IMG/VR virus record: IMGVR_UViG_3300013009_000061 | Coordinates: 1 to 52,424 of that record | DNA: 52,424 nucleotides | Origin: a virus | Reading direction: 5' to 3' (one strand) | In this document: positions 1 through 10,911 of the stretch, one piece after another | How positions within the stretch are numbered: position 1 is the stretch's first letter | Layout: each line of letters opens with the position of its first letter | Position numbers and translations under genes: made by a program | Notes under the pieces: generated by a model | The model's database searches: none | Told to the model about the DNA's origin: nothing | The model's input: only the letters and a program-made list of their open reading frames with translations

Positions 1-1704
1 CTATGACGCACGGACTGGATACGGCAGAGGATTGCATGAGGTGCTTGGCGGTGCTCGGCGAGCCCCAGCGGCTGCGGATTCTCCGGGCGTTGGCCGACGG
101 CGAGCAGACCGCGGGTGAGCTCTCCGAGCGCCTCGGCGTGCGGCAAAACACGCTTTCCCATCACATGAGACAGCTTCGCGAGCACGGGCTGGTGGAGGTT
201 CGCCTCCACCATGCATAACCCGAACTCGCAAGTTGCAGTCGAATTCGTCGGTTCCGTCGTCGAAAGTCAAGATGACGGAGTCGACGAATTCTTGTATGAC
301 AGCCTTCTTTGCCACGTCGTCTCCATGTAGGAGCTGGTACTTCTTTTCGCGGATCACAGCCTCAATCGCCGCGTCGTCCAGATGGTCTCGTTTTTTCATG
401 ACTTCGAGACGGACAAGCGCTTTTTCGATTTCATCCTTCCGGTCCTTAGCCTCATTGATGTACGACCAGACAAGTTCCTGATCTTTAATGCCTCTTAACG
501 AGTTCATCCAGGCCTGAATATCCTGATTAATTTCCGAGAGCTCGCGCCGCAGCACTTCTTCGTCTTGTTTCAATTGCGCGCGCTGCTCTGCATACAGCGC
601 TTGGATGTTCTTCACCATCATTTGAATGGACTCGTCTGTGAAATAGGTGTCAACCAAAAGTTTGATAATCGCATTCTCAATGTCAGACTTACGAATGCTC
701 GGAAGGCCACACTTCGCAGAACATGTGTAGTACTGATACTGACTTCCTTTGTTGGTATAGCTGTTGCCGTTACAACGAGCACCGCATTGGCCGCAGTACA
801 ACTTATCGCTCAACAGATACGTAGCATCGCCTTTGTAATAGCTCGGTTTGAATTTCCGTGTGGCCATGATCTGATTCACCCTCTCAAAGAGTTCACGGTC
901 AATGATGGGAGGAACTACACCCTCCACAACAACCTGCTCTTCTCTTGGTTTGAAATCATGATTATTCCGTGTTCCATCTTCTCGCTTTGAAGACCGTACG
1001 TCCCAAGTATAAATGCCGATGTATTTCTTGTTGCAGTGCCAACCGTCAAAACTATTGATGGTGAAAGGCCGTCCGCGTTGGGTACGGAAGCCGCGTTCAT
1101 TGAGCTCTGCAGCGATCTCCGACTTGTTTTTCCCCTCGGCAATACGGGTAAAGAAGATTCGGACGGCTTCTGCGGCACGTTCATCGATTTCCAAACGCTT
1201 GGTCTCTGGATTGACTCGATAGCCATAAGGTGGCCGTCCGCCTGTTGTCATGCCCTTTAGGGCGTTTTCCTTCAATCCTTTACGGCTTTCCCTTGCGAGG
1301 TTTTTGGAGTAGTACTCGGCCAAACCCTCTAATACTGATTCCAAAATAACACTTTCCGGTGAATCGTCCAAGCGCTCCAGGACGCTTTCAAGACGTACAC
1401 CGTTCCGCTTCAGAATGCGTTTGTAATACGCGCTGTCGTAACGATTGCGCGCAAAGCGATCTAATTTATGCACGACGACCACATCAAAGAGTCCTTTTGC
1501 ACTATCTTGGATCATCCGTTGAAAGTTCGGTCGATCATCGGTCGTCGCCGACCGTGCCTCGTCTGGGTAAACCCCAACTAGTTCGTAGCCCTTCTGTTTA
1601 CAGTACTCCTCGATCGCGCGCATCTGAGCGTCAATTGACTCTTCGCGTTGGTTATCGGAGCTATAGCGAGGATAGGCAACGGCCCGAATTTTCTTTTTAA
1701 CCAA
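1..1704 (-). CDS. Large serine recombinase (phage integrase), 3' end open into host DNA
   Basis: This site-specific recombinase would integrate and excise the phage. The N-terminal resolvase domain carries the catalytic motif YPRYSSDNQ, with Ser15 as nucleophile, and later the conserved VHKLDRFARNR. A recombinase domain follows (around GGRPPYGYR), then a zinc ribbon (CGQCGARC and YYTCSAKC) and a long coiled coil. The start is a TTG at 1702-1704 preceded by AAGAAGGTGAG at good spacing. Phage-like sequence ends near residue 500. After that the frame runs without a stop into GC-rich antisense host sequence and leaves the window. In the prophage the protein therefore probably has a host-encoded tail, whereas in the circular phage it would end at a stop beyond attP. 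The first gene of a minus-strand lysogeny set in map order. Confidence 0.92.
   Translation of the reverse strand: MVKKKIRAVAYPRYSSDNQREESIDAQMRAIEEYCKQKGYELVGVYPDEARSATTDDRPNFQRMIQDSAKGLFDVVVVHKLDRFARNRYDSAYYKRILKRNGVRLESVLERLDDSPESVILESVLEGLAEYYSKNLARESRKGLKENALKGMTTGGRPPYGYRVNPETKRLEIDERAAEAVRIFFTRIAEGKNKSEIAAELNERGFRTQRGRPFTINSFDGWHCNKKYIGIYTWDVRSSKREDGTRNNHDFKPREEQVVVEGVVPPIIDRELFERVNQIMATRKFKPSYYKGDATYLLSDKLYCGQCGARCNGNSYTNKGSQYQYYTCSAKCGLPSIRKSDIENAIIKLLVDTYFTDESIQMMVKNIQALYAEQRAQLKQDEEVLRRELSEINQDIQAWMNSLRGIKDQELVWSYINEAKDRKDEIEKALVRLEVMKKRDHLDDAAIEAVIREKKYQLLHGDDVAKKAVIQEFVDSVILTFDDGTDEFDCNLRVRVMHGGGEPPPARAREAVSCDGKACFAARRGARRAHPRSARRRPTPGESAAAGARRAPPSTSCNPLPYPVRAS
3..218 (+). pseudogene. 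ArsR-family transcription repressor, truncated by prophage insertion
   Basis: A 71-residue reading frame with the N-terminal winged-helix fold of ArsR/SmtB metal- or stress-sensing repressors. The segments LGEPQRLRILRAL and LGVRQNTLSHHMRQLREHGL are typical of helix 2 and of the DNA-recognition helix-turn-helix. In family members the sequence after GLVEVR continues through a beta-wing and a final helix. Here it ends after four unrelated residues at TAA (216-218). The simplest reading is that the phage integrated inside this host gene and removed its 3' half, so the product probably lacks the wing and dimer helix and is non-functional. The start may be the ATG at 3, but the window edge prevents a check for an upstream start. 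Confidence 0.75.
191..210. other. Probable attL crossover region (8-bp inverted repeat)
   Basis: GGTGGAGG (191-198), a TTCG loop and CCTCCACC (203-210) form a perfect inverted repeat exactly where the ArsR-like protein stops resembling its family and where the recombinase frame changes to low-complexity GC-rich coding. Large serine recombinases normally sit directly beside attP and use short imperfectly palindromic sites with a 2-bp crossover. The exact crossover cannot be fixed without the other end or an empty site. Confidence 0.5.
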
Positions 1705-5241: not shown

Positions 5242-5462
5242 GCTGCCAAGGCCGCATTGAGCGAATCCGCGGACGGATGTGCGATGTCCGCGTCACCACA
5301 ACGCGAGGCAACTATCTCAGCACCTTTGATGCTCGCACGCTGGCACCGTCGGACAGCCACGCACTGCACCCGGAACGGGCACTCCAGCGCGCGTTGGACA
5401 AGCTCCTGGCTGAAGCAAAGGCGGCAATCGCCGCAGAGGAGGTGAAGACGACGTGGAGCTGA
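5181..5462 (+). CDS. Small early protein, unknown function
   Basis: A 93-aa protein starting MHKFYVGQPVIVGPHAEHSV. It has the look of an SH3-like or KOW-type barrel (VGQPVIVGPHAE, GRIERIRGRMCDVRV) and a helical C-terminus. TGGAGGGACA precedes the ATG at 5181. It overlaps the previous gene by 61 bp and the next by 10 bp. The fold guess is weak. Confidence 0.55.
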   Translation: MHKFYVGQPVIVGPHAEHSVGCQGRIERIRGRMCDVRVTTTRGNYLSTFDARTLAPSDSHALHPERALQRALDKLLAEAKAAIAAEEVKTTWS

Positions 5463-5920
5463 CCGTACGCATCGAAGCGCCCGAACTGACGCACGCCATT
5501 CTCGAGCTCGCCTCCGTCCTCGCCATGGGTGTGTCCGCGGAGGCGGCCAAGGTGTCATTGGCGCATGAGCGCGCCATCTCTGAGGCTACGGCACAGACGA
5601 CATCTGCGCCAAGTCCACAACCAACGGCGGCTCCGGCAACGGCGTCGGCCGCGGCAGCCGCAGCAACCCAACCTGCGGCCCCAACGGCACCAGCGGCACC
5701 CACACCGCCACCGGCGCCCTCAACTGCTGTGCCGACAGCCGCGCCGACCTACACCCTCGAGCAGCTGGCGGTCGCCGCGACACAGCTCGTCGACGCCGGC
5801 CGACGGGACGAACTCATCCAGCTGCTCCAGTCGTTCGGCGCGCAAGCGCTCACCGCCTTAGCACCTGAGCACTACGGTGCGTTCGCGACAAAGCTGCGCG
5901 AGATGGGGGCGAAGCTCTAG
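5453..5920 (+). CDS. Early protein with Ala/Pro-rich linker, unknown function
   Basis: A 155-aa protein in three parts: an N-terminal helical segment (residues 1-48), an Ala/Pro/Thr-rich low-complexity linker (~49-98) and a C-terminal helical domain (YTLEQLAVAATQLVDAGRRD). The start is a GTG at 5453 with GAGGAGGTGAAG upstream. Its position directly before the replication genes is typical of a conserved small phage protein of unknown role. Confidence 0.6.
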   Translation: MELTVRIEAPELTHAILELASVLAMGVSAEAAKVSLAHERAISEATAQTTSAPSPQPTAAPATASAAAAAATQPAAPTAPAAPTPPPAPSTAVPTAAPTYTLEQLAVAATQLVDAGRRDELIQLLQSFGAQALTALAPEHYGAFATKLREMGAKL

Positions 5921-7104
5921 TGGTCGCGACACACGCAGAACGCCCTCACGCACTGCTCAGCGCGTCTGCAGCACATCGATGGCTGGCCTGCCCGCCGAGT
6001 GCCCGGCTGTGTGAACAATTCCCGGACACGACGAGCGAGTATGCGGCTGAGGGGACTTTAGCGCATGAGCTCGCCGAGCTCAAGCTACGCAAAGCGTTGA
6101 AACTCGGCAATCTCAACGCGCGGGAATTCAACAAGCGCCGCAAAGAAATTGAGTCGCATCCGCTCTACAGTGCTGAAATGGACACTTACACGGATAGCTA
6201 TGTCGACTACGTCCTTGGTATCGTGCACAGCTATCGCGTGCCACCTTACGTGACGGTCGAAAAGCAGATTGACTACAGCGCCTACGCGCCTGAGGGTTTT
6301 GGCACCGGCGATTGCATCGTGATCGGCGGCGAAACCTTACACATCATCGACCTGAAGTACGGGAAAGGCGTGCGAGTGAGCGGAGAAGGCAACCCACAAA
6401 TGCGTCTCTACGCGCTCGGCGCCTTGCAGGAGTACGGGTTCCTGTACCCGATTACGGAAATCCACACGGCCATTGTGCAACCGCGCCTCGAGAGCATCAG
6501 CGAAGAGACGATCTCTGTCGACGAACTGCTTGCCTGGGGCGAATCTATCAAGCCTATCGCCGAGATGGCGTATCGAGGCGAGGGTGAGTTCAACGCGGGG
6601 GAGCACTGTCGCTTCTGTCGTGCGAAGTCCGTCTGCCGCGCTCGGTCTGAACAGTACCTGGCGCTCGAAGCGTTCGGACAAGCCAAGCCTCCGCTCATCA
6701 CGGACAGCGAGGTCGGGGAAATTCTGCGTCGAGCCAAGGCATTAGCAGAGTGGGTAACGGACCTCGAGGAATACGCACTGCAACAATGTTTGGCTGGCAA
6801 CCAGATCCCCGGCTGGAAAGCTGTCGAAGGTCGCGGTTCGCGGCAATACGTCGACTTGGATGCCGCGTTCAAAGCGCTCATCGACGCCGGCATCGATGAA
6901 GCGGTGCTCTACGAACGCAAGCCACTCACTGTCGCGCAACTCGAAAAGGTACTCGGCAAAGCGCAGTATCGACAGCTACTCGAAGAACCGGGACTCGTGA
7001 GGAAGGAACCCGGCAAACCGACACTCGTGCCTGAATCGGACAAGCGTCCCGCGATCACCGCGAAAATTACGGCCCAAGAAGCCTTTGGAGGAGACGAACG
7101 ATGA
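5920..7104 (+). CDS. DUF2800 PD-(D/E)XK-type phage nuclease-like protein
   Basis: A 394-aa protein of the DUF2800 family (pfam10926), related to the Cas4/RecB-type nuclease fold. The N-terminal HALLSASAAHRWLACPPSARL and GTLAHELAELKLRK are characteristic. The core carries ETLHIIDLKYGKG, where D and K fit the PD-(D/E)XK active site, and a Cys cluster CRFCRAKSVCRARSE resembles a Cas4-type iron-sulphur site. The GTG start at 5920 overlaps the preceding TAG. It pairs with the DUF2815 gene that follows with a 4-bp overlap, a linkage common in Firmicutes phages. A recombination nuclease role is inferred. Confidence 0.82.
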   Translation: MVATHAERPHALLSASAAHRWLACPPSARLCEQFPDTTSEYAAEGTLAHELAELKLRKALKLGNLNAREFNKRRKEIESHPLYSAEMDTYTDSYVDYVLGIVHSYRVPPYVTVEKQIDYSAYAPEGFGTGDCIVIGGETLHIIDLKYGKGVRVSGEGNPQMRLYALGALQEYGFLYPITEIHTAIVQPRLESISEETISVDELLAWGESIKPIAEMAYRGEGEFNAGEHCRFCRAKSVCRARSEQYLALEAFGQAKPPLITDSEVGEILRRAKALAEWVTDLEEYALQQCLAGNQIPGWKAVEGRGSRQYVDLDAAFKALIDAGIDEAVLYERKPLTVAQLEKVLGKAQYRQLLEEPGLVRKEPGKPTLVPESDKRPAITAKITAQEAFGGDER

Positions 7105-7742: not shown

Positions 7743-9029
7743 ATGCGACATTTGAGCGTGGACATCGAGACGTACTCCAACGTCGACATCAAGAAGAGCG
7801 GCCTGTACAAGTACGCGCAAAGCCCTGACTTCGAGATCTTGCTGTTTGCGTACTCGTTCGACGGAGGGCCCGTCGAGGTCGTCGACCTGGCTCAGGGAGA
7901 GCAGCTGCCGGCAGACATTCTGTCGGCGCTGCAAGACCCAGGCGTGATCAAACACGCTTACAACGCGGCCTTTGAGTGGTACTGCATCAATCGGTTCTGG
8001 CCATCTCCGCTCGAGCAGTGGCGCTGCACCATGGTGCACGGTCTGTACTGCGGGTATCCCGCAGGTCTCGCCAACGTCGCCAAAGCGCTCCAGCTCAACG
8101 AGGACAAGCAGAAGATGAGCGTCGGTGCCGCACTAATTCGGACGTTCTGTGTGCCGTGTAAACCCACCAAAGCGAACGGAGGGCGCACACGGACGCTCCC
8201 GCATCACGAGCCCGAAAAGTGGGCGCTCTTCAAGGAGTACTGTCGGCGCGACGTCGAGGTCGAGATGGAGGTTGCGAGGCGTCTGGCAGCCTTCCCGGTG
8301 CCTGAAGAAGAACAGCGACTGTGGGTACTCGATCAGCGCATCAACGCGTACGGCGTGGCCATCGACACGGACCTTGTGGACGGTGCCCTGGCCATCAACG
8401 AGACCGTGACCTCGGAGCTGATGGACGAAGCCGTCCGACTGTCCGGACTGGACAACCCGAACAGCGTGCAACAGCTCACCAAGTGGCTGACCGAGGAGTT
8501 GGGCGAAGAGGTCACGGACCTGCGCAAGGATACGGTGGAGACGCTGCTGCAGTCCATCGACGATGGCGCAGCCAGACGCATGCTCGAAATAAGGCAAGAG
8601 TTATCAAAAGCATCCGTCAAAAAGTACGCCGCCATGCGCGACGCGGTGTGCGCGGATGGGCGGGCGCGAGGGCTGCTCCAGTTCTACGGGGCCAGCCGCA
8701 CAGGGCGATGGTGTCTAGCCGAAGGAACGCCCGTACTTGTGCGAACACAAGAAGGCGAAATCCTGGAAAAGCCCATCGAATCTGTATTGCTTACAGACCG
8801 AGTTTGGGACGGAGAGCAGTGGGTAACTCACGAGGGGGTAGTGTTCAGCGGTGACAGGGACGTGATCACCTGGGACGGTATTACTGCGACCCCTGAACAC
8901 ATCGTGTACATCTCCGACACCGAATCAATGCCACTGGCCGAAGCCAAGAGAAGGGGGTTGCGACTGTGGAGAGGCAATTCACCGTTTACCGCATCATCGG
9001 ACCAACTGGCAAACAGTACATCGGCGTGA
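7743..9029 (+). CDS. DNA polymerase family A, exonuclease half, fused to split N-intein
   Basis: Residues 1-323 are the N-extein, a proofreading 3'-5' exonuclease. Exo I is DIETYS (D7, E9), Exo II is HAYNAAFE (71-78) and Exo III is YCRRDVEVE (Y166, D170). It ends at GASRTGRW, just before the conserved GRLIQPQNLPR of phage PolA. Cys324 then begins an intein: block A CLAEGTPVLV, a short linker region, and block B DGITATPEHIVYI with its TxxH. The frame ends at 9029 without block F or G. The last ~20 residues are encoded in DNA that also encodes the start of the GIY-YIG gene. No polymerase motifs are present, so this protein cannot polymerise alone. Its partner is encoded from 9841. Confidence 0.93.
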   Translation: MRHLSVDIETYSNVDIKKSGLYKYAQSPDFEILLFAYSFDGGPVEVVDLAQGEQLPADILSALQDPGVIKHAYNAAFEWYCINRFWPSPLEQWRCTMVHGLYCGYPAGLANVAKALQLNEDKQKMSVGAALIRTFCVPCKPTKANGGRTRTLPHHEPEKWALFKEYCRRDVEVEMEVARRLAAFPVPEEEQRLWVLDQRINAYGVAIDTDLVDGALAINETVTSELMDEAVRLSGLDNPNSVQQLTKWLTEELGEEVTDLRKDTVETLLQSIDDGAARRMLEIRQELSKASVKKYAAMRDAVCADGRARGLLQFYGASRTGRWCLAEGTPVLVRTQEGEILEKPIESVLLTDRVWDGEQWVTHEGVVFSGDRDVITWDGITATPEHIVYISDTESMPLAEAKRRGLRLWRGNSPFTASSDQLANSTSA

Positions 9030-9841
9030 CCAGCATGTCAGTGACAGAACGTTGGCGTCACCACATCAATCACGCCGATTCGGCGCCGATAGACCATCCT
9101 TTTTACTCGGATGTCCGTAAGTACGGCCGAGATGCGTTCATGGTTGAGACGATTCGCTCTGGATTGGGCTTCACCGAAGCCCGTAAGGCGGAACGTGCAC
9201 TCATCGCTGTCACCCCAGAGCACTTGCGTTACAACCTCTCTCCAGGCGGAGCGGAAGACGCGAAATTCGGCGGAATCGTGTTCTGGGAAAGGCTCAATGC
9301 GGATCCGGAAGCCCGACAGATTTTCCTGCAAAAGCTTTCAGAGGTAAAGAAGGCGCGCGATTGGTCAGACTATGAGTCCATGTCTGAGGCTGCGGAATCC
9401 TGGCGCAAGGAACATCCCAAAGAAGCGTACAGGCTCGCGTACCGGGCCATCCGCCTGGCACGCAAAGCTCGACCGCAGCCTGTTCGCAAGGAAGATACAC
9501 GTCCTCTGAAGGAGCGGCTCATGTGGAAGCACAAGCGCTCAGAGATGACGCGCAAGCATGCATTGGCGCAGTGGGCCCGCAGGACCGAAGCCGAACGCGT
9601 CGCAATCGGAGCAAAGATCTCCAAGAAACTGAAGAAACGAATGATGGATAAGGCGATCCTTCCTGATTTCAAGCAGGAAGAATGGCCGTTTGCAAAGGCT
9701 ACGGTTTTACGAAAGATGCGGCAGGGAATGTCGAGAGAAGAAATCATCGCAGACGCTATCAAGGTTGTCAGGCAACGCGGATCCCATTGGCGCGACGTAC
9801 AAGCCAAACTACAGGCCATGCGAAAAGAGGGGCATCTCTGA
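8966..9841 (+). CDS. Free-standing GIY-YIG homing endonuclease in the intein gap
   Basis: A 291-aa protein with an N-terminal GIY-YIG nuclease domain. TVYRIIGPTGKQYIGVT holds the two motifs (the first as TVY, the second intact as YIG), then ERWRHHINHA supplies the catalytic Arg region and TEARKAERALIA the likely metal-binding Glu region. The rest is lysine/arginine-rich and helical, as expected of a DNA-binding tail. The GTG at 8966 has AGAAGGGGG upstream. It overlaps the N-intein frame by 64 bp and ends in a TGATG overlap with the C-intein start. It sits in a third reading frame between the two polymerase halves and probably spreads the split-intein allele to intein-free polymerase genes. 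Confidence 0.9.
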   Translation: MERQFTVYRIIGPTGKQYIGVTSMSVTERWRHHINHADSAPIDHPFYSDVRKYGRDAFMVETIRSGLGFTEARKAERALIAVTPEHLRYNLSPGGAEDAKFGGIVFWERLNADPEARQIFLQKLSEVKKARDWSDYESMSEAAESWRKEHPKEAYRLAYRAIRLARKARPQPVRKEDTRPLKERLMWKHKRSEMTRKHALAQWARRTEAERVAIGAKISKKLKKRMMDKAILPDFKQEEWPFAKATVLRKMRQGMSREEIIADAIKVVRQRGSHWRDVQAKLQAMRKEGHL

Positions 9842-10911
9842 TGCGAACGTACGACATCATCAATGCAGGACCGAAGAACAGGTTCATGGCAAACGGCCGG
9901 ATTGTATCAAACTCAGGGCGGCTCATCCAACCCCAAAATCTGCCAAGAAATCACTTGGATTGCATGTCCTTGGCACGAGACCTCGTCAAGGCGCGCAAGC
10001 TTGATGCCATCCGAGTGATCTACGGCAACCTAGCGGACACACTCTCGCAGCTCACGAGGACTGCGCTCATCCCGTCTCCAGGACACCTCTTCGTCGTCGC
10101 CGACTTCTCCGCTATCGAAGCACGCATCACCGCATGGCTAGCGGGCGAAGAGTGGGTGCTCGAAGTCTTTCGGACGCACGGCAAGATTTACGAGGCCACG
10201 GCTGCGCAGATGTTCGGCGTGCCGCTAGAGCGGATTGTCAAAGGCAACCCGGAATACGAGCTGAGGCAGAAGGGCAAGGTCGCGACTCTCGCACTTGGGT
10301 ACGGCGGCGGTTCAGGAGCGCTCATCAACATGGGCGCGTTGAAACAAGGTCTCACAGAGGATGAACTGCCTGAGATCGTACAACGCTGGCGTGCCGCCAA
10401 CCGGCGCATCGTTGGCCTCTGGTACACCGTTGAAAACGCCGCGCTTGAAGTGATGCGCACGGGACAAGCCGTCGGTGTACGAGGGCTCATCTTCGCACGA
10501 GAGGGCGACGGACAGCAGGACTGGCTCACCGTACGGCTACCGAGTGGTCGCAAGCTCTATTACGCGAAACCCGCTATCGAGCTCAACGACCGCGGGAACG
10601 AACAGCTAAGTTACCAGGGCACCACGATGAAAGGCGGCAAACCGGAGAGGACGTCGACGTGGGGCGGGAAGCTCGTCGAGAACTTGGTGCAGTCCATCGC
10701 CCGCGACTGTCTGGCGGTGTCGCTCATGCGACTTGCCGCGGCAGGCTACAAGATCGCGTTTCATGTGCATGACGAAATCGTGCTTGATGTACCGGCTGAA
10801 CAAGCAGACGTCGATGCGGTGACGACCATCATGGGACAACCCATCGACTGGGCGCCAGGGCTACCGCTTAAAGCCGAGGGCTTCGTTTGCGAGTACTACC
10901 GAAAGGATTGA
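9841..10911 (+). CDS. Split C-intein fused to DNA polymerase family A, polymerase half
   Basis: A 356-aa protein. Residues 1-24 are a minimal C-intein: block F TYDIINAGPKNRFMANG and block G ending in IVSN with terminal Asn24, followed by Ser25 as the +1 nucleophile. The C-extein resumes with SGRLIQPQNLPR and carries all polymerase motifs: A (VVADFSAIEAR, D88), B (R142, K146, Y154-G155 in LALGYGGG) and C (HVHDEIVLD, D311). Splicing with the 7743 product would give a 655-aa exonuclease-polymerase, the normal size for this group. The ATG at 9841 overlaps the endonuclease stop (TGATG) and has AGAGGGGC upstream. Confidence 0.93.
   Translation: MRTYDIINAGPKNRFMANGRIVSNSGRLIQPQNLPRNHLDCMSLARDLVKARKLDAIRVIYGNLADTLSQLTRTALIPSPGHLFVVADFSAIEARITAWLAGEEWVLEVFRTHGKIYEATAAQMFGVPLERIVKGNPEYELRQKGKVATLALGYGGGSGALINMGALKQGLTEDELPEIVQRWRAANRRIVGLWYTVENAALEVMRTGQAVGVRGLIFAREGDGQQDWLTVRLPSGRKLYYAKPAIELNDRGNEQLSYQGTTMKGGKPERTSTWGGKLVENLVQSIARDCLAVSLMRLAAAGYKIAFHVHDEIVLDVPAEQADVDAVTTIMGQPIDWAPGLPLKAEGFVCEYYRKD

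Follow-up and report, generated by a model that had tools for sequence, protein, structure and literature searches.

Fractured genes were reportedly described by Dassa and colleagues in 2009 as conserved phage-type enzyme genes carrying a split intein, with an endonuclease gene placed between the N-terminal (IntN) and C-terminal (IntC) intein pieces. Here we describe, by computational analysis, the anatomy, empty site, recurrence, selection and endonuclease fold of such an element in the family A DNA polymerase gene (polA) of a viral sequence of 52,424 nucleotides, IMG/VR record IMGVR_UViG_3300013009_000061, which in its whole length is called the window. It shares with Dassa-type genes the split intein and the intervening endonuclease gene in a conserved enzyme gene; what appears to set it apart is its host gene, a phage polymerase of family A, and a GIY-YIG endonuclease that overlaps both intein pieces. 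We consider the insert at 8712-9912 to be a mobile fractured-gene element, and we put the probability of this explanation as a whole, including trans-splicing and homing, at about 0.92.

The combination of a GIY-YIG endonuclease with a split intein is not new. AceL NrdHF lies on a phage-like contig as a fractured gene with an intervening putative GIY-YIG homing endonuclease, and is split at the usual endonuclease position (PMC7891396). It is a class 3 intein in nrdHF that lacks Cys1 and has pieces of 98 and 48 amino acids, whereas the intein of the window is of class 1 type with Cys1, has pieces of 105 and 24 amino acids and is located in polA. An earlier note on this DNA, made from the sequence alone, had therefore overstated the rarity of the arrangement, which is known but rare. 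Aes123 PolB1 is a naturally split intein also named after a DNA polymerase gene (PMC11923092), but it is cysteine-less, consists of 120 and 39 amino acids and belongs to PolB1 and not to PolA. ShiLan has a phage gene with an insert, free of any intein, that encodes an HNH endonuclease out of frame (PMC11855218). ShiLan and the window thus both have an out-of-frame homing endonuclease in a phage gene insert, without a splicing domain in the former and within a split intein in the latter. The GIY-YIG catalytic fold and the residues Y, Y, R, E and N are common to I-TevI and the window enzyme; I-TevI, however, is found in a group I intron and has a different DNA-binding part. We found no report of the polA site of the window in the open literature. 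The locus adds to the known fractured genes and is distinct by its host gene, its overlapping layout and its IntC of 24 amino acids.

Organisation of the interrupted polA gene

The locus consists of three open reading frames (ORFs), each in a separate frame and in the frame order 2, 1, 0. The N-half ORF (7743-9029, 428 amino acids) encodes 323 residues of extein and 105 of IntN, and the C-half ORF (9841-10911, 356 amino acids) encodes 24 residues of IntC and 332 of extein; the endonuclease ORF between them starts with GTG (Table 1). IntN and IntC are therefore on separate ORFs at the polA junction, in frames 2 and 0, with a stop at 9029 and a start at 9841. The gene is cut precisely between RTGRW and SGRLIQ by an insert of 1201 bp, a length not divisible by three, and the parts add up to 655 amino acids of extein and 129 of intein. 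The phage DNA polymerase profile PHROG 17 aligned from 670 to 975 with residues 1-323 of the N-half, and from 976 to 1228 with residues 25-351 of the C-half. Since profile positions 975 and 976 meet at the cut, the profile is contiguous across the interruption. The ORFs, coordinates, quoted residues, lengths and three differing frames given in the earlier note were all found as described there. The endonuclease gene, which it had called free-standing, is indeed a complete ORF between the halves, but it shares 64 bp (8966-9029) with IntN and a single base with IntC.

Although the longest ORF for the C-half begins at 9682, its conserved start is the ATG at 9841. Stop and start overlap at the border of endonuclease and IntC, as TGATG (9839-9843) in the window and as ATGA at the same place in a second fractured locus, L088. 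Shine-Dalgarno-like sequences, AGAAGGGGG and AGAGGGG, precede both inner starts, and this favours separate starts over frameshifting or decay. Programmed frameshifting, in which two -1 events would produce one long precursor with an in-frame endonuclease, fits the frame order, but neither the IntN nor the GIY frame contains an X XXY YYZ heptamer, and together with the separate starts this makes it scarcely probable at all.

Empty and occupied sites

Each extein half was mapped on its own in 80 related viral contigs, and the gap between the two was measured. It was exactly 0 at the junction in 77 contigs (L002 and 76 of the 79 others), and the other three gave partial or shifted matches. L002, the closest relative of the extein, has an intact empty site, and is the homologous continuous polA that the earlier note had proposed to look for. 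Some 13 kb of L002 (about 6 kb upstream and 7 kb downstream) align in synteny with the window at 83-91% identity, and the synteny is broken at the insert (between window positions 8712 and 9913).

Other relatives have the site filled. L087 carries a continuous mini-intein of 139 amino acids at the same W↓C...N↓S junction (IntN 65%, IntC 92% identical). In L088 the full split is repeated, with an IntN ORF, a GIY-YIG ORF and an IntC ORF beginning MRTYDIVNAGP; its endonuclease is 45-46% identical to that of the window over 270 amino acids and has its start at an identical codon offset. Scanning bacterial genomes revealed all parts in L111 and L117, from Ruminococcus and Clostridia metagenome-assembled genomes (MAGs) respectively, and IntN with GIY in L113 and L114 (Ruminococcus MAGs), whose contigs are without the 3' part. 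At this site IntN is 56-71% identical in L087, L088, L095, L111, L112, L113 and L114, and IntC is conserved in L087, L088, L095, L111, L112 and L117 (Table 1). Within the locus, conservation is highest in IntC, at 92-96% in L087, L088, L111 and L117 against 44-51% for the extein, and IntN is 65-71% identical in L087, L095 and L111 against 43-50% for their exteins. Inteins that are more alike than their host genes, and a nearest extein relative without the insert, give the distribution of a mobile element.

The same three-frame layout in the independent assemblies L088, L111 and L117 indicates that the frames are not a sequencing artefact, and speaks against an assembly error, which the earlier note had named among the findings that would refute it. 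Neither such an error nor a group I or II intron is a credible explanation of the insert. Group I introns often carry GIY-YIG endonucleases, and the NCBIfam match of the window enzyme is to a family of that name (below); the ends of the insert, however, encode intein blocks A and G, and there was no Rfam match to an intron RNA at the locus at either the gathering or a relaxed threshold.

Scanning the viral contigs with the single endonuclease protein gave no match, and with an endonuclease alignment it led back to L088 (as L106), besides four loci in which the match was confined to the GIY domain. No close homologue of the endonuclease was present in 50,697 phage records, and a fractured site as in the window was seen in none of the phage matches inspected. 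Two candidate signals were rejected. Residues 14-24 of the C-half matched intein-free polAs by a chance resemblance of FMANGRIVSN to FYGASRTGRW, and an extein-only query aligned with a gap of 0. Inteins of Streptococcus, Ruminococcus and Gardnerella phages appeared to occupy the site of the window, but their actual site is ELA↓C...HN↓CGYGG.

In L112 (Blautia MAG; 5320-6078, minus strand) what separates IntN from IntC is an inverted DUF3800 gene (Pfam E 1.6e-12) and no endonuclease. The corresponding gap in L095 (2454-2867) is an ORF of 138 amino acids without a family match, also without endonuclease, and the polA of L095 has a second, cis mini-intein further along.

Identity of the intein

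Class 1 inteins, with their Hint fold, have Cys or Ser at position 1, TxxH in block B, a C-terminal Asn, and Cys, Ser or Thr at position +1. All these splice residues are present in the window as C1, TPEH in block B, N24 of IntC (...VSN) and Ser+1, and they are kept in the same-site copies; the earlier note was right that Cys1, the C-terminal Asn and the +1 Ser are intact. The profile of this intein family aligned with the Npu DnaE intein using hhalign with a probability of 95% (E 3.8e-8), and in a search of PDB its best four matches were inteins (best E 0.0057). The profile search suggested in the earlier note was positive in these comparisons, and fell short of the Pfam and NCBIfam thresholds. 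Searching PDB with IntN and the endonuclease by phmmer gave nothing useful.

Selection and a diverged 5' tract

Purifying selection acts on the extein, on IntN and on the endonuclease. The C-extein had a dN of 0.017 and a dS of 0.447 between the window and L002, a comparison partly older than the insertion. In the close fractured pair L113/L114, dN/dS was 0.030/0.453 for IntN and 0.065/0.434 for GIY, as against 0.089/0.131 (IntN) and 0.142/0.078 (GIY) when the same DNA was read in the wrong frames. The low dN relative to dS in this pair indicates that both intein and endonuclease are maintained while split.

Such selection excludes sequencing error and renders decay unlikely. If the locus were a decaying pseudogene, that is, a former in-frame GIY-YIG intein broken by frameshifts, with a dead polymerase, then two indels would be expected to leave three frames, and the IntN of L117 does carry a frameshift. 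Against this, L088 has the same frame order and the same endonuclease start position, Shine-Dalgarno-like sites and TGATG/ATGA couplings occur at the new starts, and dN/dS is low throughout. We regard decay of the window locus as very unlikely.

The halves could also form a non-covalent heterodimer without splicing, the intein pieces being relics. In a T4-like phage, a ribonucleotide reductase split by an endonuclease is active as two peptides, at least as Friedrich 2007 is cited in PMC10448857, and the cut in polA falls between the exonuclease and polymerase parts. Yet divergent copies retain every splice residue of IntN and IntC, purifying selection acts on IntN, and no part of the locus is better conserved than IntC. 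A heterodimer is thus improbable in our view, but as a second way to a two-subunit polymerase it makes the earlier statement that trans-splicing is the only clear route to an active enzyme too strong.

Between the window and L002, the codons immediately 5' of the insert (201-323) have a dS of 1.76, well above the 0.38 of codons 1-200 and the 0.45 of the C-extein. Codons 201-323 are probably a foreign tract, which is consistent with co-conversion in homing without being proof of it. No donor of this tract was identified, the best match being 75%.

Several observations weigh against a working split intein that spreads by homing. The His of block F is not conserved and is Lys in the window; the family scores below the Pfam and NCBIfam intein thresholds; and IntC is short, at 24 amino acids against 36-48 in characterised typically split inteins. 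The AlphaFold2 (AF2) model of the L087 mini-intein has a predicted local distance difference test score (pLDDT) of 50 and is too uncertain to serve as proof, and its best structural matches, although Npu DnaE inteins, are not significant (E 0.18). The frameshift in L117 means that some copies may decay, part of the window/L002 dN/dS predates the insertion, and ordinary recombination instead of co-conversion could have given rise to the diverged tract. On the other side, empty-site relatives, repeated splits, the mini-intein, selection, the GIY-YIG fold and the lack of an intron all support the fractured-gene reading put forward in the earlier note.

The GIY-YIG endonuclease

The endonuclease matched PHROG homing endonucleases (E 1.5e-12) and NCBIfam TIGR01453 'group I intron endonuclease' (E 9.6e-9, below the curated cut-off). 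Its catalytic residues Y8, Y18, R29, E76 and N90 are invariant in six copies. The AF2 model had a pLDDT of about 80-92 across residues 1-90, and in Foldseek its top three matches were the catalytic domain of I-TevI (probability 1.00, TM-score 0.73 by target length). The enzyme thus models as I-TevI-like with its catalytic residues present. Residues 229-288, in contrast, matched the C-termini of HNH endonucleases that are nested in inteins of another polA site, in L112, L115, L116, L119, L121 and L122 (tblastn, 42-44% identity, E 4e-10 to 4e-13), and the C-terminal end of the L088 enzyme differs from that of the window. Since one C-terminus is shared with HNH enzymes and the other is different, nuclease and C-terminal parts appear to have been shuffled, which on sequence grounds is domain exchange between the GIY-YIG and HNH nuclease families.

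Proposed mechanism

We propose that one transcript would give three proteins: the exonuclease half with IntN, the GIY-YIG endonuclease, and IntC with the polymerase half, the translation start of IntC being coupled to the endonuclease stop. IntN and IntC would associate into a class 1 intein of Hint fold, and Cys1, the C-terminal Asn and Ser+1 would ligate the exteins into a family A polymerase of the normal 655 amino acids (...RTGRW-SGRLIQ...). In phages that co-infect the cell or already reside in it, the endonuclease would cut polA alleles lacking the insert, whereupon repair would copy in the whole element. Trans-splicing, polymerase activity and cutting of the empty site are expected by analogy with the families concerned; homing is indicated by the empty and filled alleles, by inteins more alike than their host genes and by the foreign 5' tract.

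Related polA inteins and a possible origin of fractured genes

A second group of fractured polA genes (L098/L099, L101, L103, L104 and L105) has HNH ORFs, and not GIY-YIG, between the halves, and is inserted about two codons downstream of the site of the window (GRWSG/A↓C). At the polA site ELA↓C...HN↓CGYGG, seven loci have continuous inteins with an out-of-frame HNH gene inside the intein frame (Table 1). Synonymous shuffling of the HNH gene gave a mean of 4-16 expected stops in the intein frame, where none was observed (P <=0.0005 each). No published report of an out-of-frame HNH gene nested in an intein was found in the open literature, of which our coverage was incomplete.

By ORF inspection, nested HNH genes were also noted in L091 (second intein), L100 (a helicase) and L124-L130. 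Among these, L127 (Sodalis phage SO-1, 1552-4740) has a polA annotated with a 'type I self-splicing intron' and an HNH gene; as its frame is open throughout and has intein motifs, the polA more probably contains an intein, with the HNH gene nested in it, than an intron. L092 (5001-6182) has an apparent split intein with an HNH endonuclease at a third polA site (LCEN↓C...N↓CVQAVAR).

The nested HNH genes and the shared C-terminal domain suggest an origin of fractured genes from inteins that an endonuclease gene overlaps out of frame. It would be an even bet that the polA inteins are one lineage with an out-of-frame endonuclease across the intein frame, from which the fractured members came by stops, a new IntC start and HNH/GIY-YIG exchange. 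The continuous members would be dual-coded, their intein frame held open through the overlapping HNH gene; stops would then appear in the intein frame and IntC would gain its own start, giving fractured members such as that of the window. If true, this would provide a concrete route from cis- to trans-splicing inteins.

Elsewhere in the window, a large serine recombinase (Resolvase and Recombinase domains; 1-1704, minus strand) fits a temperate phage. By polA, its nearest relatives include Paenibacillus phage Pd_22F (70/61%). Of the description 'temperate Firmicutes phage' in the earlier note, the first word agrees with the recombinase and the second is suggested by these nearest relatives.

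Table 1. Features of the interrupted polA locus (window positions) and HNH ORFs nested out of frame in continuous polA inteins (positions in the locus named)
Feature	Position	Strand	Evidence
polA N-extein, 3'-5' exonuclease half, 323 aa, end ...SRTGRW	7743-8711	+	PHROG 17 E 1.6e-56; 86% identity to L002
Diverged tract immediately 5' of insert, codons 201-323; possible co-conversion footprint	8343-8711	+	dS against L002
IntN, 105 aa and stop; block A CLAEGTPVLV..., block B GITATPEH	8712-9029	+	Same-site IntN identity; hhalign to Npu DnaE
Shine-Dalgarno-like AGAAGGGGG ahead of endonuclease GTG	8949-8957	+	Sequence
GIY-YIG homing endonuclease (putative), 291 aa	8966-9841	+	PHROG, TIGR01453, AF2/Foldseek, L088 homologue
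Endonuclease C-terminal domain of ~60 aa, residues 229-288	9650-9829	+	tblastn to HNH endonucleases of other polA inteins
Shine-Dalgarno-like AGAGGGG ahead of IntC ATG, followed by the stop/start overlap	9826-9832	+	Sequence
IntC, 24 aa, MRTYDIINAGPKNRFMANGRIVSN	9841-9912	+	79-96% identity in same-site copies
polA C-extein, polymerase half, 332 aa, begins at Ser+1 SGRLIQPQNLPR	9913-10911	+	Pfam DNA_pol_A E 2.5e-17; 96% identity to L002
Nested HNH ORF, L082	4496-5272		
Nested HNH ORF, L085	4523-5329		
Nested HNH ORF, L089	5104-5742		
Nested HNH ORF, L093	5090-5812		
Nested HNH ORF, L115	2235-3122		
Nested HNH ORF, L116	5062-5916		
Nested HNH ORF, L122	2314-3195		

Significance

In this locus, an enzyme central to phage replication is interrupted by a split intein that is intact and under selection. 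Because an empty-site relative, further split copies and, at the identical junction, a continuous mini-intein are all available, parallel tests of splicing, of homing and of the transition between continuous and split inteins become feasible. Should its IntC of 24 residues prove active, it would add a short natural C-intein of use in protein ligation, and the related dual-coded inteins suggest how fractured genes may have originated.
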